Positions 30,158 to 52,207 of a stretch of 64,000 nucleotides of DNA are shown piece after piece. The stretch is from the NCBI GenBank assembly GCA_020080175.1, contig JAGHQL010000087.1:44273-108272 (forward strand), given 5' to 3'. The DNA is from Glutinoglossum americanum (Eukaryota > Ascomycota > Geoglossomycetes > Geoglossales > Geoglossaceae). The translations under genes and the position numbers were made by a program. Every line of letters begins with the position of its first letter. The first letter of the stretch is position 1. A model generated the notes under the pieces. That model had not been told where the DNA came from, ran no database searches, and saw nothing but the letters and a program-made list of their open reading frames with translations.

Positions 30158-30268
30158 TGTTATGGTGGCTACCAAGTAAAAGCCTGGCTAGCTACCAAAC
30201 AAGCTGAGGGAGAGAGCTAACCCTAAGGAAGACTGGTAGAGTATAAGAGAAACTACTCTACACGTAAT
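30158..30268 (-). repeat. LTR-B fragment, reverse orientation
   Basis: The sequence starts TGTTATGGTGGCTACC and runs with clear similarity to the reverse complement of the right end of the LTR-B family (compare 48,770-48,881). After 111 bp it is interrupted by the LTR-A copy that starts at 30,269. The rest of this LTR-B copy was not found to the right of the interruption. Confidence 0.75.
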
Positions 30269-30678
30269 TGTCATGACTTGTAGTCGGTTACCTGGTGAGG
30301 CCCCTGAGCCTCCGCGGCTGAGTAATCAGCTCACGTAATATCGACGACGTCTTATCCATATGTAATGTAATCTCCCAGCCATTATGTATTTGCCGTCATG
30401 TATATATATGATTCACTAGCTTCCTGCTTGGAGGTCAGTGATTAGTCTTTTATATTTCCTACCTGTTAAAATCAAGTTTATCTTACCTGCCATACATTCT
30501 AAGTTAGACCAACATGTAGTAGTCCTTAAACTATTGAGTCAACCCATTAGCTCTTATATATCTAAGTCTTATTTACACGTAGGTCAGGCGGCTAGCTATT
30601 ATTGTTGCTACTAGGTACGATACCATACTGTTACCGAACCTTCCGAGGACCCTTGGCATCAGAGTACCTTCGTGTCGC
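30269..30678 (-). repeat. LTR-A copy, reverse orientation (left palindrome arm)
   Basis: This starts TGTCATGACTTGTAGTCGG and reads as the reverse complement of the next feature over nearly its full length. It lacks the last ~25-30 bp of the family (it stops at CTTCGTGTCGC), where the forward copy begins. With the forward copy it forms an imperfect palindrome whose arms are about 410 bp. No gag or pol reading frame is present, so I interpret it as a solo LTR. Confidence 0.8.
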
Positions 30679-31139
30679 TGTAAGAACTCTCGATGTCAAG
30701 ACGACACAAAGGCACTCTAACGTCGAGGGATCTAGAGGGTTCGATAATAGTATGACGTCGCACCCCGCAGTGATGACGATGGCTGGCCGACTAGTCTATG
30801 TCTAGATGTACAAGGACTAATAGATAGACTTGATGGTCGATAGTTCAGGATGACTTGATATCGGCCCAGTTTAGAATGTAAAATAAACGGAATAAACTTG
30901 ATTCTAGTAAGCAGGAGATGTAAAAGAACTGATCGTTAACCTCCAGCAGGAGGCCAGCGAACCGCTTATATACACGATGAGCATTCAACAATAAAATAGA
31001 CGTCATAAAGCAATAAGGATATACACTTGCAGAATCTATATAGCCATATAGACGAGTCGCTGTTTGCATAACCCGAACTAGTTACTTGGCCACAGAGGCC
31101 TAAATAGCCTTGCCGGGTAACCGACTGCAGGTCATGATA
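30679..31139 (+). repeat. LTR-A copy, forward, full length (461 bp)
   Basis: This begins TGTAAGAACTCTCGATG and ends GTCATGATA (family consensus ...CATGACA), the TG...CA ends of LTR retrotransposons. It matches the interrupted copy at 47,876-49,078 along its length. It joins the reverse copy at 30,678/30,679. I found no matching 5-bp target duplication (GTCGC on the left, CCTTT on the right), so the right flank has probably been rearranged. Confidence 0.8.
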
Positions 31140-38800: not shown

Positions 38801-40773
38801 TTATATTTAGCCCTAAAATGAGCCTAATCAGACAAATATTCTCAGATCAAAGTCCATTATGGATTAATGCCGAGCCAGCCGTTGACGAATATTGGAGTCC
38901 TTCTTTGAAGACGCTTGAGGGCCACTCAGACTGGGTCAGGTCCGTAGCGTTCTCACGCGATGGACGGCAGCTAGCATCTGCATCTTATGACCATACCCTC
39001 CGGCTCTGGGACGCCACGAACGGAGCCCTCCTGAAGACGCTAGAAGAACATTCAGACTCGGTCGTATCTGTGGTGTTCTCATGCGATGGACGGCAGCTAG
39101 CGTCAGCATCTGATGACCGCACTGTCCGGCTATGGAACGCCGCGACAGGTGCCTTGCAGAAGACACTTGTGGGCCACTCAGCCGCGGTCACATCCGTGGC
39201 GTTCTCGTGCGATGGACAGCAGTTGGCGTCAGCATCTTATGACCATACCGTCCGGCTCTGGGATGTTGCAACCGGAGTTCTACAAAGGACACTCAAGGGT
39301 CACTCAGACTCGATTATGTCTGTGGCATTCTCGCACGATGAGCGGCAGCTGGCATCAGCATCTTATGACGGAACTGTCCGGCTCTGGGATGCCGCGACAG
39401 GTGCCCCGCAGAAGACTTTTGGGGGCCACTCAAATTGGTTCACGTCTGTGGCGTTCTCGCACGATGGACGGCAGCTGGCGTCGGCATCTTATGACAGTGC
39501 AATTTGGATCTGGGATGCCGCAACAGGAGTCCTCCGGAGGATGCTTGAGGGCCACTTATCTGCAGTCACGTCCGTGGTGTTCTCACGAGATGGACGGCAA
39601 TTGGCGTCAGCATCTGATGACCGCACCATTCAGCTCTGGGATGCTGTGACAGGCGCCTTGCAGAAGACGCTTAAGGGCCACTCAGACTGGGTTAGGTCTG
39701 TGGCATTCTCGCGCGATGGGCAGCAGCTAGCATCAGCGTCTTATGATGGTACCGTCCGGCTCTGGGACCCTGCGACGGAAGCCCTCCAGAAGACGCTCGA
39801 GGGCCACCCAGACGCGGTTATGTCCATGGCGTTTTCGCACGATGGGCGGCAGCTAGCCTCAGCATCTAATAGCGGCACCATACGGCTCTGGGACGCTGCG
39901 ACAGGAGCTTTACAGATGGCGATCGAGGGCCACTCATCCGTGATCAGGAGCGTGACATTCTCGCGCGATGGATGGCAGCTCGCGTCAGCATGTGATGATA
40001 GCACTGTCCGGCTCTGGGATACTACAACAGGAGCCCTACAGAAGACACTCAAGGGCCACTCAGCTGGGGTAAGATCTGTGGTATTCTCGAATGATGGACA
40101 GCAACTGGCGTCAGCATCTGACGACGGTACCATCCGACTCTGGGATGCTGTGACAGGAGTCCTGCAGAAGACACTTGGGGGCCACTCATACTGGCCCATG
40201 TCTGTAACGTTCTCACGCGACGGACTGCAGCTGGCATCGGCATATGGTGGCGGCACCATCCGGCTCTGGGATGTCAAGACAGGAGGCCTGCAGAAGACGC
40301 TCGAGGGCCATTCATCCGCGGTCAGGTCTGTGGCGTTCTCGCGCAATGGACGGCAGCTGGCGTCAGCATCTGATGATGGAACCATCCGGCTCTGGGATGT
40401 TGTGACAGGAGCCCTGCAGAAGACGTTCAAGGGCAACCCAGACATATCAGCACTATCCTTTCCCAATGATAAATCACGTCTCGTAACGAATATAGGGTCA
40501 ATCGAGCTAGAAATTCCTACTTCTGGTCAAGTCCAAACGGCGCCATGGTCGTTATATTCCTTAAATGCCGAAAGATCTTGGATAACTTACAGAGGCGAAA
40601 ACCTCCTTTGGTTTCCTCCCGAATACCGACCTGCCTGCCAAGAATTCCGAGATGACCTCATTGCATTAGGATGTTCATCAGGCCGAGTTATTATAATCAG
40701 AGTATACCCAGATCTGCACCTGGCAAAAATCGGTAAACGACGACAGCAATCCTTGCGAAACAAACCAATTTGA
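35867..40773 (+). CDS. NLR-like receptor: PNP_UDP domain, NACHT ATPase, WD40 repeats
   Basis: Three exons, 35867-36965, 37047-38635 and 38692-40773 (introns of 81 and 56 nt), give 1,589 residues with no interruption. Residues ~13-355 form a nucleoside-phosphorylase/MTA-SAH-nucleosidase-like domain (FEIAVICALQSEADAV, LLVGICGGVPDGTGDEEVLLGDV, IAFEMEGAGVWDNFPCVVIKGVCDYAD). A NACHT ATPase follows, with Walker A GMAGTGKST at ~430 and Walker B LLVIDALDECE at ~530, then a helical module containing LLHPSFRDFLL. Twelve 42-residue WD40 repeats occupy ~967-1470. This is a classic fungal STAND/NLR layout, in which the N-terminal domain is the effector and the repeats sense ligand. Such genes control vegetative incompatibility or immune-like responses. 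The first intron has a GTGGGT donor and a TTACTAAC branch; the second has GTAAGT. Confidence 0.93.
38902..40413 (+). repeat. Twelve in-frame WD40-coding repeats of 126 bp
   Basis: Twelve consecutive units of exactly 126 bp encode 42-residue WD40 blades of the form LQKTLxGHSxxVxSVxFSxDGxQLASASxDxTxRLWDxxTGA; a thirteenth, degenerate unit follows. Units are nearly identical except at a few positions: the residues after Gly-His-Ser, and the two residues around SASxDx. That pattern is typical of HET/NWD-type repeats kept similar by unequal exchange while the ligand-facing positions diversify. Confidence 0.95.
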
Positions 40774-41294: not shown

Positions 41295-42658
41295 TCATTC
41301 AATCAAGTCCCTTAGTGCTTGGGCCGCTACAGAGTAGACTTCGTCTTCAGTACCATCCGATAAAACCTGGTGGTATATCAAGTCAGCACATCTCCAGGCT
41401 ATATACGATACATCTTACCGTCTTAACAGCCCACTTTTCCCGTATATTATTTTCTATCGAAAGGCTTTCCCTTTTGTATGTTTTGATTCTCGCGTTGATG
41501 GAATCTATGTTATATTCCACCTCGCTCGACAACTTCGCTCGGTTCAGTAGGCGACTTATTAATACATCTTCTGGGCATTTCAGAATGATGGCGGAAATGT
41601 GACCACGAATCTGGAATTTGTCATCTCAAATGTGATGCCATAGGAAGAGGTAAACAAAATGGCTAACCTTTAACTCAAATTCCTTCAATTGATCCATGCT
41701 CGTCGGAAAACCATCTATCAGAAATCTCTTTTTTCCTTTCGCTGCGGCAGCACCCATTTTTCTTACCATCAAGCTCACGGTCAATGGCGCTGGAATGATC
41801 ACAGATTCCTTGAAGCTTTCATCAAGGAACTCTGCGAAAACGGATGCTGGGCGATCGCGCTCTTCCCGTAAAATGTTTCCAACCGATATATGCTCGAAGG
41901 CAAATTCGTGGGCAAGTCGAGTGCATTGGGTTCCTTTGCCTACACCAGGGCCTCCTGCAGTACGATTAACAGAGATATTTTGTACTTTTTGGGAGGCTAT
42001 ACCTAGAACAAGGACAATCAGAAGGTCTTTTTCTTTTTGCGACCAAAAGGCTTCTCTTTCTTTGGACAAAACCTTTGCCCACTCTTTGATAACTGGATCG
42101 ACAATATTGGCTTCCATTTCGACAAAATCTCGAAGATCATGTTTTCCGCCGGATCGTTTCTCATATTCGAGAGCCTGCATCAGACACTCAAACGAATCCA
42201 CTGACCGGACTAGTTGGGCCTCTTTGGTTGTACACTCCTCGTATTCGGCCCAGTAGGCCTCGAGGTTGTCGGCTAACGACGTGCTTATGCGTCGTGCTTC
42301 ACATCCAATATACTTTATGGCTAGGCGCTCAAATTTATACTTCTCGTCTACAGGATGGTTAATATTTTGATCGCGAAGAGGGGGCGGTAGGTAGACCTTT
42401 AGATATACCATCGGATGGTGCGATATCTCCGATAATCGTTTGTCCTATGGTGTGGATCAATGCCATTTGGACGGCTTTGTCTATATCTATATCCCCATGC
42501 GGGTATGCCATACAAATCATCGCCATCCGCCATGTGTGATCGCCCACGCTTTCGGGTTCAGTGACGCCTCGTCTCGCCCAACCAGTGCGGGGTAGGTTTT
42601 TCAGGCGTTCCAAAAGATGAAACAAAGGGAGAGGCGATTGGCTGCTATGTATATCCAT
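41295..42658 (-). CDS. HD domain fused to adenylate/UMP-CMP-type kinase; HD motif altered
   Basis: Five exons, 42658-42409, 42347-42003, 41954-41668, 41610-41419 and 41366-41295 (introns of 61, 48, 57 and 52 nt), give 381 residues. Residues 1-190 match the HDDC2/YfbR-like HD phosphohydrolase family (LLERLKNLPRTGW, ESVGDHTWRMAMI, IIGDIAPSD). The HD dyad, however, reads HTIGQ where the family has HDxxE. From ~198 the protein becomes a nucleotide kinase: LGGPGVGKGTQC P-loop, FEHISVGNILREE, LIDGFPTSMDQL, ILKCPEDVLISRLLNRAK and TYKRESL. The kinase half looks complete and active; the HD half has probably lost metal-dependent dNMP hydrolysis. It is divergent from cytidine deaminase, which suggests a pyrimidine-nucleotide role. 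Whether it prefers UMP, CMP or AMP is not visible. Confidence 0.88.
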
Positions 42659-44263: not shown

Positions 44264-45439
44264 TAATGCCAACTACATAGTGTGGACGCACCGAAAGGGG
44301 GTGTGGCAATACCAGGGCCCTTAAATTTTTGTCAGTTCTTCCAGTTCTTCCAGTTCTCCCAGCTCTTCTGCCGCAGCAAGCATTTTTCGCCAAATTTCCT
44401 CGCATAATGATTTCTCGTTCGCCTTCTGTGTCCCCCATCTAAAGGCTGAATGCATTCTTGCGAGGATAATAAAAAGCATTGCAAGAATGTACTAAGTCTT
44501 GAGGTGGTATGTGAACTGCTCGCCACTTTGTTAGCCACTGCGGGGCCCCAACATAAACTTTCTATTTCCCTCCTTCTCTCAACCTCTCGACCTTCATCAC
44601 CATATCTGAACCATGAGACTTGTAGCAGTCTCGGCAAGAGAAAAATAGGAGCTCCTGCTTATCAGCAATGCTCTGATCTACAAATTTCAATCATTGTACA
44701 TTTTTAAATAATTTAATAGCAAAATTTTCTAATATATTAATTACAATTTAAAACAAATAGCTTTTATTTCAATCTTTTTAAATCTAAAACCTGTAGGTAT
44801 TTTCTTTTGTTAACTAACCTAAGTATTTATATAATTATTTCTTTAACGTACTCCACAAACGAATAGTCTACACAATCGAATGATTCACTTTTTACCGAAC
44901 AACGACAAAGATTCTCAATTGCAATACTATTACATTAAAAGTTAATTAATTTATATTAGAAATAGATAAAATAGATAATTTCTAAACTTCTTGATTAGTT
45001 TTTTGAGCTTCTTGACAAGTTTGTATATTATAACCTGACTTTTCACATATTCGGCAACACCATGTTTTCTCTAACCTTTGCTATACTTCCTGCATTATCT
45101 ACTCTGTTACAGTCTGTTAATCAAGTAGATTTTATGCATCCTGTACAGAAAGAAATTGTTTATATTATACTAACGTTTTTTTAGCCCTTCGTTGTTTGCT
45201 TAAAGCTTTGTTTGTTTTACAGAGATTAGAAACCTCTATTTCCAATAAAGCTACACGATACATCATAGTCTTTGTACTCTTTACAAACTGATTTATAGTA
45301 TTATATATCGGTGTTAGTGAACTATTCTAATGGTTAGAAATCTGTTACTTAATAAAGTTTAATTGTGAATTAACTCTTAATAGATTGTGTAGTGTTTTCA
45401 GTGTTTACAGAACTGATAAAACTTCAGTCAGTATCAGTA
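44264..45439. other. Edge and body of second AT-rich block
   Basis: Composition is normal up to about 44,700 and abruptly AT-rich beyond. A short array of CCAGTTCTT-like units lies at about 44,333-44,362. No open frame of note is present. The right part probably belongs to the 3' end of the decayed transposon that follows. Confidence 0.5.
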
Positions 45440-46608
45440 TCGGTATTTGTAACTATACATCTAGCTTTGAAAGAACCTATTATAAATCATGTAATATAAG
45501 TTCAGCTCCAGCAAAACCACTTTGAATATTTTTTTCTATTATAGAAACTACGAAAGCTTCACGGAATGCATGAAGAAACTCAAGCTTGCTGATATGAGTA
45601 ATATGTGCTTATATTAACTCTTCAATTTGATGACTGTATGCCTATTTTAATAGCCTAAAACAGCTAACATCTAGTAGTTGAAGATAGTAAGAAGAATGAA
45701 TGTAAAGGCATGTAAAATATGATAATATCGTGTTATTGACAATAAATTTCAAATTTCGTTAAATAATGACTATTGTGGCTATCTAGAATTAAAAATCGAT
45801 ATTTGTCTTTTCTATGTAATGTTATATAATGATCAAAGTATTGAATCTATTGTAGGCTTACTTCGTTTGTTGTCCAGCTATTATCCATTGTTGTAATAAC
45901 CTAATTATATAAAAGGTTACATTCTATATACCAGTTGCTAAGGTGATATTGAGCTACAAAAATGATAAGTAATAGAATCATCTAGCCTTTGCAATTCATA
46001 TTCTGTATAACTATTACCTATTCATGATTACTAGTTTAAGTTAACTTCACTTTACTATGACTGTCTGAAGTAGTAACTACCATGCCAGTAGAAATAATAC
46101 TCATCATAAACCCTGTTTCATCAAAGTTGTAGATATCATCATCTAGTATACTGTACTTGGTTTTTACATATTACATATGTATAAACTATTTTCTAATGAC
46201 TTTTGAATCCTCACACTTAATCCTCTAATAATTGTATTTGCGTGAAAAGCATGTATAGAGTTATGGTTGACGTTTGACAAAGTTTGAAGCCCAGTTTTTA
46301 CCAACATTTGATACGTCTTATATATGTAAAATTCGATTGGTCATATTTTCTACATTATGTAGTCTTGGAGGAAATAATCGTGTTACTAGTTCAGTTATAT
46401 ACTGAACTATCATATCCTCTTCCAGTTTTGTCAACTTGCATAAATTGGGTAAGATATTGCATCAGGCAATTTGGCCATTGTATTGTTGACGAAATGTTGT
46501 ATGACTAACTTTGTAAGTCATTGCTGTAGATCATAACTTTAAATTTTCATTATTTTTAAGAGCTTGGAGGGCAAGGTTAAGTCTTGCTTCATATGAAATT
46601 GAAACCAT
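45440..46608 (-). pseudogene. Decayed pogo/Tan1-type transposase
   Basis: Read leftward from a Met at 46,608, a single frame with many stops but few or no frameshifts follows the pogo-type layout. It runs ARLNLALQALKNNENLKL (psq helix-turn-helix), NVGKNWASNFVKRQP (CENP-B-type), DDDIYNFDETGFMMS (first Asp), AQYHLSNWY, RFLILDSHNSHYLTKFE (second Asp), LLDVSCFRLLK (third Asp) and VLSKLDV near 45,455. Stops sit where CAA, CAG, CGA or TGG codons are expected. It is a different family from the 33,077 element and resembles the relic at 29,301. Confidence 0.85.
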
Positions 46609-46908
46609 GTCTTGTTGTAGAAAGAATTGATATTAAAGTTAGGAGGTTTGTGTCTTTTATGAAAGTGAACTATTTGGTTGTGTGGACTATTCATTTGTGA
46701 AGTACATTATTAGAAATACTAATTAATATATTCAACTAGCTTTCTATTTTACAGTATCTTAATTTTTTTCAGAAACTAGTTATATATTAAGAGTAGTACT
46801 AATATATTTACAAATATATTAATTATAACAATTATAATTCTTATTATTACAAACTAATAATTATCTTAAATAGTATAGATATTAATAAAAATAGTAAAAA
46901 ACTAGATA

Positions 46909-47034
46909 GCAAGCCCGCATCAGAAAACAGAGGGTTTTGTATTAGGCAAGGTATATGCATAGACTCATCACTACTTTGGTGAGGTATAAAGATTGTGCAA
47001 CTACCTACAGCTTGCTATTTTCCTTCCTTCTTTC
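46909..47034 (+). repeat. Left member of a ~125-bp inverted repeat pair
   Basis: This matches the reverse complement of 51,719-51,842 along about 125 bp; shared landmarks are CAAGCCxGCATC, GGCAAGGTAT, CTACTTTGGT and TTTCxTTCxTTC. It encloses the LTR stack and a tandem-repeat region, so it could be one end of a DNA transposon about 4.9 kb across with insertions. Confidence 0.7.
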
Positions 47035-47875
47035 ACCAACAACCTAATGTATATCAGAACCTCGCTGTGACAGCTGCTTATATAAGCTAGACTATAAAGG
47101 TTGAATATCACAGGCATCAAGACTAAGTTAGTTCTAGGGAGTTAGTCACAATGGAGTAAGGAAGGCTGGCCGTGTAGCACGACAGGAAGGTAAGTCAAAT
47201 AGTCTTTAATAGTTTAACTAAGGTGATTATGGTATTGACTGATGAGGTTCCCTTCAGGACCCTCCTCGGCCTTCTATATATACTAATGGTTCTGAGGGAT
47301 TCATAGGTAAGGACCTGCCTGGTCCTCTCTATAGACGCGTACGGATCTCTCACCTTTGGCTGTACTTTCATTGGGAAGTCTTTATGATACCTATATAGTT
47401 CCCTCACTACCAGCCATGCCTTCTGCCACTGCCCGTACTCTTATATGAAGTTCCCATAATGTCTGTGCGATTTTTTCGCCGCCGGCCATACTCCTATATG
47501 AAGTTTTTATAATGTCTATATAGATCCTTCACCGCCAGCTGTACTTCTATGTAGAGTTCCTATAATGCCCATACAGTTCCTTCACCACTGGTCATACTGT
47601 TATGACTCATAGTCAGTTACTCAGCAAGGCCACTGAGCCTCTACAGCTGAGTAATCAGCTTATATAACATCGATGATGTCAGGTTCTAGGGAGGTGCCGT
47701 GGGTACTCAAGGCTCAAGAGGGTCATTCGGGAGGTTGTTTATGGTCTTATAAATGAGTTCTCAAGCTTGAATATGTGTCACAGCTTGACAGGAGGTTCGG
47801 CAGGATGTCAGAAACAAATAGACTAAGTAAGAGGATAGATATGGGCTACTGGATAGCTTCTATTAGATGAACTAT

Positions 47876-49078
47876 TGTAAGAACTCTCGATGCCAAGGCG
47901 ACACGAAGGCACTCCGACGTCGAGGGATCTAGGGGGTTCGATAATAGTGTGACGTCGCACTCCGCAGCAATGACGATAGCTGGCTGACTGGTCTGCATCT
48001 AGGTAAGGTCTAGATGTACAAGGACTAATAGATGGACTTGATAGTCGATAATTCAGAGCAACTTGACATTAGCCCGGTTTAGAATATAAAGTAGATGGAA
48101 TAGACTTGATTCTAGTAAGCAGGAGATATAAAAGAACTGATCGCTGACCTTCATGTAACAGCTGCTTATATAAGCTGGGCCGCGAAGGTTGGGTGCCACG
48201 GGCGTCAAGGCCGAGCTAGCCTTAAGAGGCCGGTCACGATGGAGCAAGTGGGATCAGCCGTGTGGCATGATGGGAGGGTAGGCTTAATAGTCTTTAATAG
48301 TTTATCTAATATGATTATGGTATTGACCGATGAGGTTCCCTTCAGGACCCTCTTCGGCCTTCTATATATACTAATGGCTCTAAAGAGCTCACGGGTAGGA
48401 ACCTGCCCAGTTCCCTCCATGAACACATATGGACCTCTTGCCTCTAACCGTGCTTCTATTAGGAAGTTCCTATAATACCCTTATGATGCCTATGTGGTTC
48501 CCTCGCCACCGGCCATGCCTTCTGCCGCTGCCCATGCTCTTATGTGAAGTTTCTATGATGCCTATGCAGTTCCTTCGCCACTGGCCGTGCTCTCATGTGA
48601 AGTTCCTATAATGCTCATATGGTTCCTTCACTGCCGGCCGTGCTCCCATGTGGAGTTTTTATAATGCCCATGTGATTCCTTCACCACCAGCCATACTCCC
48701 ATGTAGAGTTCCTTCATGACATCATTAGTAGAGCCTTGTGGGCCCCATTCGTATGTTACCGGCTTCGTATATTATGTATAGAGTGGTCCCCCCTATGCTC
48801 TGCCGACCTTCCTCAGGGCTAGCCCTCCTTCTTAGCTTGTTTGGTGACCCACCAGGCTCTCACCCAGTAGCCACCATAACACTCCAGCAGGAGGCCAGCA
48901 AGCCGCTTATACACGACAGGTATTCAACAATGGAACAGACGTCATAAAGCAATAAGGATGTACGATTGTGGAACCTATATAGCTATATAGGCGAGTCGAT
49001 GTTTGCATAACCTGAGCTAGTTACCTGGTCATGAAGGCCTACATGGCCTTGCTGAGTAACTGACTGCAGGTCATGACA
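47876..49078 (+). repeat. LTR-A copy, forward, inserted in LTR-C
   Basis: Pieces 47,876-48,153 and 48,882-49,078 rebuild a forward LTR-A of about 470 bp (TGTAAGAACTCTCG ... GGTCATGACA) that matches 30,679-31,139. The target duplication is perfect: ACTAT at 47,871-47,875 and 49,079-49,083. Confidence 0.88.
48154..48881 (+). repeat. LTR-B copy 3, intact solo LTR (728 bp), innermost
   Basis: This begins TGTAACAGCTGCTTATATAAGC and ends GCCACCATAACA. It interrupts LTR-A with the duplication CTTCA (48,149-48,153) / CTCCA (48,882-48,886); the uninterrupted LTR-A at about 30,950 has CTCCA at this spot. It is the least mutated LTR-B copy and therefore the youngest insertion. No primer-binding site or polyprotein frame is present, so it is a solo LTR. 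Confidence 0.88.
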
Positions 49079-49748
49079 ACTATATACAAGAGGTGTATTG
49101 ACCAATAAAGGTTAAAGAGTCAACTCCGTTGGTCAGAAAAAAGGCTTGCAGGCTTGACTTGAGTACAGACCATATATTAGTTCAAGTTCGTGAACTCTGC
49201 CCCTTATGGCTCTGTATGCCGTAACAGATGACATCTCATCCATATGTAATATAATCTTCTAGTTATTATGCGTTTGCCATCGTATATATATATGACTCGC
49301 TAGCCTCCTGCTTAGAGGTTAACGATCAGTCTTTTATATTTCTTACTTGTTAGAATCAAGTCTATTCTACCTGCCATACATTCTAAGTCGAACTGATATA
49401 TAATTATCCTTAAACTATTGAATCAACCTATTAGTCTTTATATACCTAAGTCTTATCTACATGTAGGCCAGGCGGCTAGCCATTATTGTCACTACGAGGT
49501 GCAATATCACACTATTACTGAACTTCCTAAGAACCCTCAGTGTCAGAGTGCCTTCGTGTCGCCTTGGTATTAAGAGTTCTTACATATACTCTCATGTGAA
49601 GTTCCTTTATGACGTTATTAGTAAGGCCTTGCAGGCTCTATTCGTATGTCACCAGCTTAGTATATTACGTATAGGGTAGTCCTCTCTATACTCTATCAGC
49701 CTTTCTTAGGGCTAGCCCTCCTTCTCAGCTTGTTTGGTGACCCACTGG

Positions 49749-50412
49749 TATGGCAGCTGCTTATATAAGCTAGACTGTGAAGGTTGGGTGCCATGGGCGT
49801 CAAGGCCGAGCTAGCCCTAAAGGGCTGGTCACGATGAAGCAAGTGGGGCCGGCCGTGTGGCATAATGAGAGAGTAAGTCTAATGGTCTCTAATAATCTAT
49901 CTAATATGATTATGATATTAACCAATGAGGTTCCCTTCAGGATCCTCCTCGACCTTCTATATATACTAATGGCCTTGAGAGGTCCACAGGTAAGGACTTG
50001 CCCAGTTCCCTCTATGAACGTATATAGGCCTTTCACCTCTAGTCATACTTTTATTAGAAAGTCCTTATGATGCCTATATAGTTCTCTTACTACCAGTCAT
50101 ACCTTCTACTGCTGCCCGTACTCTTATGTGAAGTTCCTATAATACCTGTGTAGTTCTTTCACTGTCAGCTGTGCTCCTATGTAAAGTTTCTATGATGCTC
50201 ATGTAGTTCCTTTACCACTGGCCATGCTCCTATGTGGAGTTCCTTTATGACATCATTGGTAGGGCCTTGCAGGCCCCATTCGTATATCATTAGCTTAGTG
50301 TATTATATATAGAGTAGTTCCCCCTATGCTCTGCCAGCCTTTCTCAAAGCTGACCCTCCTTCTCAGCTTATTTAGTGACCCACCGTGCCCTTACCTGATA
50401 GCCACCATAACA
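49749..50412 (+). repeat. LTR-B copy 2, inserted near the end of LTR-B copy 1
   Basis: This starts with a mutated TATGGCAGCTGC (family TGTAACAGCTGC) and ends GCCACCATAACA, 664 bp in all. The duplication is ACTGG (49,744-49,748) / ACTGA (50,413-50,417). The remaining ~31 bp of copy 1 follows directly. Its mutation load is between those of copies 1 and 3. Confidence 0.82.
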
Positions 50413-50810
50413 ACTGAGCTCTTACCTGATAGCTACTATAATAAAAATACTTCCTGTTATATGTAGAGAGATTCACCATAGCTGCGAGGTCCTGAAACTA
50501 TTAATCCTGCACTTTCATATAAAAGATGCTCATTTGCAGCCATAATTCCATATTGCTATCAATACGATTGATTAATCATAGTATTATTTTTTAATCATCG
50601 GCAAGGCTGTAAAAAGCAGATCAAGGAGAGAGTACCGATCGCAACAAGAGAGGTAGTCATATGACCTTGAATCCTACCCTATCCACCTAATAGTTTAGAT
50701 AGACTTGCATATTCCAAGTCTTACTATCATTGGTATCTCGGCTTTCAAGTGAGCAGCTAGTGCAGTCCAATTAGTAGATCATCCACAGATTCAAGAAATG
50801 CTCGAGGGGG

Positions 50811-51400
50811 GCTTTATATAATCTTACTATTTCAAATCAGCTCAGATCAAGGCCAATTAATATATATAATATATATTATTGTATAAGAGAAGTTCACCAG
50901 AAAGCTGTTAACACATCATCTACTTGCAGTATAGCTAGGCAGAAGCCAGGCTACATTATTGTGAGGCACTTTTGTAACTGGATTATGTACTGTAATGCAT
51001 ACAAGCTAAGAAATACTCTAACGGAGCTTTGTATAATCCTGCTGTCTCAAATCAGTTCAGATCAATGCCCAATTGACAAATATGAGATATGTATAGCACA
51101 AGAGGAGCAGATACACTATCTACCTATGGTACAACATAGTAGGGTGCAGCTAGGCAGAAAGATTGTATGCTGCAATATATACAAGTCAAGTAATACTTTA
51201 ATAAAACTTCACATGATCTTACTGTCTCAAATCAACTTAGATCAATATCTAATTGACAAATACAAGATATGCACGGCATGAGAGGAGCTCATCAGGAAGC
51301 TGCAAGCATAGTATGACGTAGCTAGGCAGAAGCTAAACTGCATCATCAGAAGGTACTTTTGCGACTGGGTTGTGTGCTACAATGTGTACAGGTCAAATCT
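50811..51400. repeat. Three tandem units of ~170-215 bp
   Basis: Landmarks recur in the same order: TCTCAAATCA...CAGATCAA (near 50,830, 51,046 and 51,225), an AGAGxAGxTCA-like block and GCTAGGCAGAA (near 50,933, 51,149 and 51,321). Units have diverged by C/T and A/G changes. A 106-codon open frame at 50,961-51,281 arises from two units and reads as a repeated peptide. Possibly this was once a protein-coding repeat in a mobile element. I recognise no family. Confidence 0.6.
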
Positions 51401-51712
51401 GCAGTATCTCAAGACTCTGGAATGCTGTGCCCTTTAGAGGGTTGGTCGAGATATATCAACAAGTAGGTTACGCAAGAGTTGGGACTCTGCTGTAAGGTAA
51501 AGAGATGATCCAATATCGAAGCCCCTCAAAAGTATCGACGTGAAAGGAAAGGTATGTGAATTCTAGTTGCTGAATACTTTACCATCTTCTTAGCTGCGGT
51601 GTAGCTAGAGAAGGAGAGAGTAGATCCAGTAGGCAAACGGGCGGATATGCATGTACACTAGATAAGGGAACCAAGCATTACAAAGTGTAGGCATTGAGTT
51701 GTTAGTAAAATA

Positions 51713-51733
51713 AGAAAGAAAGAAAGAAAGAAA
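51713..51733. repeat. (GAAA)n microsatellite
   Basis: About five GAAA units lie at the inner edge of the right inverted repeat. The left repeat has the mirror tract TTCCTTCCTTCTTTC at about 47,020-47,034. Confidence 0.9.
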
Positions 51734-51842
51734 ATGGCAAGGTATGGGCAGGCACGTGGTCTTTATACCCTACCAAAGTAGCGACAGACCTGTGCACATA
51801 CCTTGCTTAATGAAGAGCCCTTCGTTTCTGGATGCAGGCTTG
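51719..51842 (-). repeat. Right member of the ~125-bp inverted repeat pair
   Basis: This is the inverted partner of 46,909-47,034. AT-rich DNA follows to about 51,970, then normal composition returns shortly before the RING gene. I could not identify a target-site duplication outside the pair. Confidence 0.7.
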
Positions 51843-52207
51843 TCATCTGATATTTTACTCAATAAAATTTATCAAAATCAAATATTTTTGAAACTAAATA
51901 CTTTTAAAAGATTGTCTAAATAGCTCTATAAATTATATAATTTAGAAAAAAAAATAATAACTAGAAAATTCCACACGACAGAACAAGTCAATACCATACT
52001 AAACATCTGTATTCAGCGCTCAGGCCCTATGACAGAGTATTACCATTTAGGGTTAGCCCTTCCCTCCGAAACTGGACCAAACTACGACACCGTTCTTTTC
52101 CACAGCAGACCCACTTGCTTGGCATGACGACAACCATCGAAGTTGAAACTGACTCTACTATATAATAGATTCGAACCTCACTCGCCTTCATAAAATTCGA
52201 GCACGAG
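51843..52207. other. End of AT-rich block and RING-gene promoter
   Basis: AT-rich sequence runs to about 51,970 and normal composition begins there. Only about 230 bp separates the repeat block from the RING-finger gene start. No other feature is seen. Confidence 0.5.

Follow-up and report, generated by a model that had tools for sequence, protein, structure and literature searches.

A nest of six long terminal repeats

The window analyzed here is a stretch of 64,000 nucleotides from the genome of Glutinoglossum americanum, corresponding to positions 44273 to 108272 of contig C304 in a source assembly of 25.77 Mb and 317 contigs (C-numbers are contig labels). Between window positions 47066 and 50443 lie repeats, one inside another, that we read as long terminal repeats (LTRs) of retrotransposons. 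The initial annotation, whose coordinates proved exact, described them as six solo LTRs that belong to three families and are nested to a depth of up to five levels. The nest occupies an AT-rich island (44 to 52 kb; GC content, 0.34 to 0.45); outside this island and a second one at 28 to 34 kb, the GC content of the window is 0.46 to 0.59. No open reading frame (ORF) of at least 220 codons was found between positions 42445 and 52168, and neither Rfam (gathering threshold) nor ARAGORN gave a match in the window.

All members of the nest except A2 are on the forward strand. The outermost LTR, B1, is split into three pieces, at 47066 to 47597, 49590 to 49748, and 50418 to 50443. The first piece ends in CATAC, the target duplicated by A2, and the second is preceded by the duplication TATAC (49585 to 49589); the second ends in ACTGG, the target duplicated by B2, and ACTGA (50413 to 50417) precedes the third. 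A2, called A reverse in the initial annotation, lies on the reverse strand, with one end at 47598 to 47676 and the other at 49232 to 49584. The former ends in GATGA, duplicated by C, and the same bases stand at 49227 to 49231 before the latter. C consists of a first piece at 47677 to 47875, which ends in ACTAT, and a second at 49084 to 49226, preceded by the ACTAT duplication (49079 to 49083) that A produced. A itself, the former A forward, extends from 47876 to 48153, where it ends in CTTCA, and from 48887 to 49078, with the duplication CTCCA at 48882 to 48886 produced by B3. Innermost is B3, an uninterrupted LTR of 728 bp (48154 to 48881), and B2 (664 bp; 49749 to 50412) is inserted close to the end of B1. 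Compared with a B copy on C102, B2 shows one 51-bp gap, or about one unit of a 53-bp internal repeat. The B LTRs hold this repeat in tandem (for example, at 48535 to 48704), and full B copies have lengths near 663, 716, and 768 bp, that is, in steps of about one unit.

We aligned the nest with independent LTR copies, meaning copies on other contigs of the same genome, sampled as best-scoring matches and their neighbors and thus not at random. Uninterrupted copies aligned split but collinear. Bases 1 to 531 and 530 to 687 of the B copy on C102 fell on 47066 to 47598 and 49589 to 49745, those of an A copy on C4 (1 to 278 and 274 to 472) on 47876 to 48153 and 48882 to 49078, and those of a C copy on C45 (1 to 199 and 194 to 342) on 47677 to 47875 and 49078 to 49226. 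The A2 copies aligned reversed and split, with bases 1 to 365 on 49582 to 49220 and bases 350 to 432 on 47680 to 47598. The aligned pieces of uninterrupted copies overlap at the target duplication. Removal of the inserts, as the initial annotation had claimed, restores host LTRs of matching length: B1, C, and A become 717, 342, and 470 bp long, compared with 716, 342, and 472 bp in independent copies, and the remaining gaps are three of 1 bp in B1, one of 2 bp in A, and none in C. With its insert removed, A2 is 432 bp long and shows twelve gaps of 1 to 10 bp relative to A.

All five 5-bp duplications read in the initial annotation are present. Those made by C (GATGA) and A (ACTAT) are exact, and those made by A2 (CATAC/TATAC), B2 (ACTGG/ACTGA), and B3 (CTTCA/CTCCA) contain one transition each. 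Random 5-mer pairs from the same region match exactly with a frequency of 0.0016 and with at most one mismatch with a frequency of 0.019; on this basis, the joint chance of the five duplications is about 2e-11.

An alternative explanation is that the nest is one composite repeat that spread as a unit with its internal junctions fixed. Every piece is indeed repeated in the genome, and pieces co-occur near each other at several loci. However, among the matches listed (best 40 of 194 candidates), the whole 3378 bp was matched only by the window itself. We searched for 12 junctions, the two outer ones included, in sequence blocks L001 to L068 plus L077 and scored each by its weaker half-match of 30 bases, with 40 random pairs and ten interior positive controls. 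Eleven of the 12 junctions scored 14 to 16 of 30, within the random range of 13 to 16, whereas the positive controls scored at least 23. The junction between the ends of B2 and B1 reached 18 of 30 on C53, slightly above random but still below the positive controls. A match on C297 that runs 30 bp over a junction turned out to be a B LTR at another position of A (after base 161, not base 278). No junction clearly recurred in the searched blocks, and we regard a composite repeat as extremely improbable.

An automatic nest finder that used copies from outside the window as queries recovered A2, C, A, and B3, each inside its predecessor, for a depth of four levels; the depth for the window was three when joined LTRs of the window served as queries. 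The program missed B1, the pieces of which matched B queries of different length, and the split alignment of the C102 copy joins B1 and thereby gives the fifth level. The insertion order of the initial annotation thus holds: B1 came first, followed by A2, C, A, and B3, each inside the preceding one, and B2 inserted separately in B1. Together, the split alignments, the 5-bp duplications, the dispersed copies, and the full-length parents described below support the nested insertion of independent elements. We are highly confident that the locus results from six independent insertions by elements of four LTR lineages (B, A2, C, and A), nested and altered by a process like repeat-induced point mutation (RIP).

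LTR families and their parents

The target duplications were surveyed in 79 full copies of A, B, and C, among them three from the window (B2, B3, and an A LTR at 30679). A looser survey (63 of 80) let the boundaries favor duplications and was not used; the figures given here therefore come from LTR ends set by alignment alone. An exact 5-bp duplication flanked 35 of the 79 copies, and 56 had a duplication with at most one mismatch, compared with a mean of 2.6 and a maximum of 10 for shuffled flank pairs (1000 shuffles). Duplications are thus not absent from independent copies. By family, at most one mismatch was seen in 24 of 39 A, 24 of 31 B, and 8 of 9 C copies, and the single mismatches comprised 21 transitions and no transversions.

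The LTR named A reverse groups with four copies of 430 to 432 bp on C160, C103, C221, and C109, to which it is 78 to 81% identical. Its identity to A is 67 to 68% in the family alignment and 71% pairwise. It carries about 24 transversions relative to A, and A-length copies carry 1 to 4, except for one with 13 at C221:2999. On these alignments, A reverse forms a subfamily of its own, A2, with a length of 432 bp. Accordingly, the six LTRs and five levels of the initial annotation stand, but its division into three families does not.

MAGGY is a fungal chromovirus, and Tf1 is an example of an element that primes its own reverse transcription. A full-length A element was found at C4:50228-58173, with AATTC on both sides and an LTR pair 98% identical. 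Reverse transcriptase (RT), RNase H, the integrase zinc domain, and a chromodomain (Chromo, PF00385; E value, 1.2e-15) scored above their cutoffs, and a single stop codon stands between the RT frame and that of the integrase. A second, degraded A element lies at C70:40980-48677. For C, a full-length element at C103:27537-35489 has the outer duplication CAATG/CAGTG and RT and integrase zinc matches with stops. In another at C285:176519-182936, gag, RT, RNase H, and the integrase zinc domain were matched, and a genome search placed a chromodomain match with two stops at 177804-177965. In the full-length A and C elements, the genes lie on the strand opposite to the LTR orientation used in the nest (+). 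The A and C LTRs belong to Ty3/gypsy chromoviruses whose integrase carries a chromodomain. One point counts against this assignment: the integrase core (rve) of the C4 element scored 31.3 bits, just below the cutoff of 32.6.

In C, the first 10 bases after the 5' LTR, flush with its end, are complementary to the interior of the LTR; this holds for 4 of 10 LTR copies (null, 0.004). The complementary run is 6 bases long for the LTR on C103 and 4 bases long for the C of the window. Judged by base pairing, this arrangement resembles self-priming, a mechanism named in excerpts of PMC2864245. In A, a corresponding match of 9 bases at an offset of 3 (null, 0.026) is suggestive only.

Nesting was also seen within the full-length C elements: a B copy with the duplication CTCCA is inserted in an LTR of the C285 element, and an A LTR (C103:28391-28862) is inserted in the C103 element. 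Elsewhere, two copies of an apparent further chromovirus lie at C9:88805-91939 and C14:1728-4862, with RT, the integrase zinc domain, and the chromodomain in a row; their integrase and chromodomain stretches contain no stops, and no A, B, or C was among the matches listed on these contigs.

The initial annotation proposed a search for full-length parents with gag-pol. Full-length elements were found for A and for C (gag being matched in C), but no full-length B was found among the scored candidates (best 40 of 117 and best 40 of 115), the assembly breaking inside B copies. The status of B as an LTR consequently rests on its ends and its 5-bp duplications, which weakens the reading of B1, B2, and B3 as solo LTRs. 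B could instead be a mobile unit that duplicates 5 bp but is not an LTR and has no gag-pol, in which case the term "solo" would be wrong for these three. Besides the lack of a full-length element, the copies share no internal flank that would fit a parent, and the repeat ends of the chromovirus at C16:72867 are not those of B. Four of five blocks with copia RT contain no A, B, or C, and the fifth (C70) has only a 45-bp B-like stretch together with A. On the other side, B has ends of the TGT..ACA type and 5-bp duplications like those of A and C, at the frequency given above. Several B copies also lie at contig ends (C293, C15, C221, C164, and C82), so a young full-length B may have been lost from the draft assembly. 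We consider a non-LTR origin of B improbable.

Several candidate parents of B were rejected. The chromovirus at C16:72867 differs in its repeat ends, and a search of that stretch with a single A, a single B, and a single C copy gave no match. On C45, two B copies that are separated by about 4 kb and point in the same direction do not bound one element, as each is flanked by a duplication of its own (exact in one case, mismatched in the other). The approximately 200 bp that adjoin B copies on C15 and C1 (C15:80264-80463 and C1:390980-391180; 97% identical) are a repeat with palindromes and without genes, not an internal region. For the B copy at the contig end of C164, the 1.5 kb on its downstream side showed no gag-pol-like ORF by eye (no domain scan was made).

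Mutation load of the layers

We counted C-to-T changes in the B LTRs against five single high-GC copies and expressed the load as the mutated fraction at the C/G sites of one reference copy. C-to-T or G-to-A changes numbered 128 in B1, 111 in B2, and 80 in B3, with 9, 7, and 7 transversions, respectively. The mutated fraction was 0.30 in B1, 0.28 in B2, 0.39 in A2, 0.30 in C (0.32 with a second reference), 0.17 in A, and 0.18 in B3. The layers thus form two tiers, B1, B2, A2, and C (0.28 to 0.39) and A and B3 (0.17 to 0.18), with a step between C and A. In paired tests, B1 or B2 was above B3 with each of three reference copies (P of 3e-5 to 4.5e-4), and A2 was above A (P of 2e-8 to 1e-7).

Several observations argue against a finer reading of these loads as a record of age. 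B1 and B2 did not differ (P of about 0.6), and A was not more mutated than the B3 inside it, so the load supports the insertion order only coarsely. The value for A2 is inflated by comparison with a different subfamily. Besides the five reference copies, 18 of the 28 other B copies compared have fewer C-to-T changes than B3. The earlier statement that the innermost copy has the fewest C-to-T changes is therefore right within family B, where B3 lies below B1 and B2, but not in relation to its host A.

CpG and CpA were the most mutated contexts in all three families; the pooled fractions in the B copies were 0.335 for CpG, 0.255 for CpA, 0.120 for CpC, and 0.102 for CpT. TpA/ApT was 0.98 to 1.40 in the nest LTRs and 0.69 to 0.78 in three control stretches. 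The usual RIP threshold for (CA+TG)/(AC+GT) is 1.03. Only B1 and A2 fell below it, and the values for C (1.07), A (1.11), B2 (1.21), and B3 (1.41), next to controls of 1.18 to 1.35, speak against RIP. The PF00145 cytosine methyltransferase domain gave seven matches on four contigs; a methyltransferase frame of 579 residues lies on C22.

Ordinary deamination of methylcytosine, rather than RIP, might account for the C-to-T excess. CpG tops the mutated contexts in all three families, and excerpts of PMC4352252 link CpG signatures to a Masc2-like, methylation-based route. Yet the mutated fraction at CpA exceeded that at CpC or CpT by factors of 1.8 to 2.5 in B and A, and by factors of 1.5 and 3.1 in C. 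The same excerpts describe for Tuber melanosporum a pattern with CpG first and CpA second in the presence of a RID/Masc1-type gene. This is the pattern found here, where the load is in addition resolved per nest layer. Deamination alone is in our view rather unlikely. The RIP reading of the initial annotation is supported by the transition excess at CpG and CpA together with the PF00145 genes. The nest LTRs carry RIP-like C-to-T changes, mainly at CpG and CpA and heavier in B1, B2, A2, and C than in A and B3; the responsible enzyme would be the product of a PF00145-type methyltransferase gene.

History and setting of the nest

In our reading, six LTR retrotransposons inserted successively into a single AT-rich island that lacks long ORFs. 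The second element struck the first copy, and so onward until five levels were reached, B2 forming a side branch. After insertion, each element would have lost its interior and one LTR, most simply through recombination between its own LTRs, leaving the 5-bp target duplications that are seen for five of the six. A RIP-like process converted C to T in the LTRs of the nest.

The exception is B1. The initial annotation held that every element had been reduced to a solo LTR, and this agrees with the duplications around A2, C, A, B2, and B3, but there is none around B1. Its flanks, CTCGC and AAAAT, gave at best two mismatches when shifted by up to 4 bases, which counts against a simple insertion at this site. 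On the left, the end of a repeat that we call D (46826 to 47065; forward strand), also present at C281 and C16, is broken off at B1. On the right lies a second, inverted copy of D (50445 to 51942; reverse strand), whose similarity to C16 (C16:80213-81546) starts two bases past the end of B1. D also occurs on C281 from 70694; repeats of about 200 bp lie within it, and the C281 stretch read contained no long ORF. B1 thus joins two inverted D copies without a duplication and may lie at a rearrangement breakpoint. Recombination between different copies is the probable source of B1 or of its present position. The simplest readings are recombination of B copies at different sites or insertion followed by deletion.

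Upstream of the nest, positions 44821 to 46710 hold an AT-rich repeat, about 1.9 kb long, that also occurs on C49 (83%), C68, C266, and C44. In C68 and C266, its ends match each other's strand, and it is perhaps a RIP-mutated DNA transposon with inverted ends.

LTR piles are not confined to this locus. A first look gave at least 115 B, 105 C, and 132 A candidates genome-wide (352), which we estimate at roughly 1% of the genome. The automatic nest finder placed LTRs inside LTRs in 10 of 47 blocks with LTR pieces, the block of the window included. In the nine other blocks, the automatic depth, determined without a check of duplications, was 2 to 4, with 4 on C53 and 3 on C251 and C101. Among 82 full copies, 28 (3 from the window) have another LTR of the A, B, or C family no more than 12 bp away on one or both sides; for 14 of these (one being the B3 of the window), both sides are so occupied, compared with the roughly 1% of the genome that such LTRs cover. 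In the second AT-rich island of the window, a B fragment, an A2, and an A LTR abut at 30160 to 31139; this A LTR, of 461 bp at 30.7 kb, has no target duplication (GTCGC and CCTTT).

It is possible, although we do not favor it, that such islands are self-reinforcing traps, in which old LTRs silenced by RIP attract chromodomain integrases and genes are spared. The chromodomains in the A and C parents fit guidance to silent chromatin, for which excerpts of PMC3248453 and PMC2864245 cite Gao et al. 2008. However, selection against insertion into genes would yield the same clustering, and the sample of copies is not random.

As in the nested LTR retrotransposons of cereals treated by REANNOTATE (excerpts of PMC2672092), the order of events is read from nesting, and solo LTRs keep their target duplications. 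Unlike those nests, as far as the excerpts describe them, the present one has only solo LTRs as its six members, reaches five levels within 3.4 kb of a 25.8-Mb fungal genome, and gains a second, coarse time axis from C-to-T mutation. The A and C parents resemble the fungal chromoviruses covered in excerpts of PMC3248453 in having RT, RNase H, an integrase zinc domain, and a chromodomain; they differ in their host class, Geoglossomycetes, and in the self-priming-like complementarity of C. In the literature collection that was searched, no transposable-element study turned up for Geoglossomycetes; the papers listed for the class were soil metagenome studies, judging by their titles and the opening of their abstracts. 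The nest provides an event order that needs no clock, against which each layer's mutation load can be set, and is thus a small natural test of the timing of RIP relative to transposition in this class. We regard the locus as an ordinary fungal LTR graveyard that happens to be unusually legible, a new example of a known process and not a new kind of element. It leaves the understanding of LTR elements unchanged, and we do not assert that fungal nests this deep have gone unreported.

Elsewhere in the window, twelve tandem units of 126 bp (38907 to 40443) lie within an ORF of 693 codons that appears WD40-like by eye.

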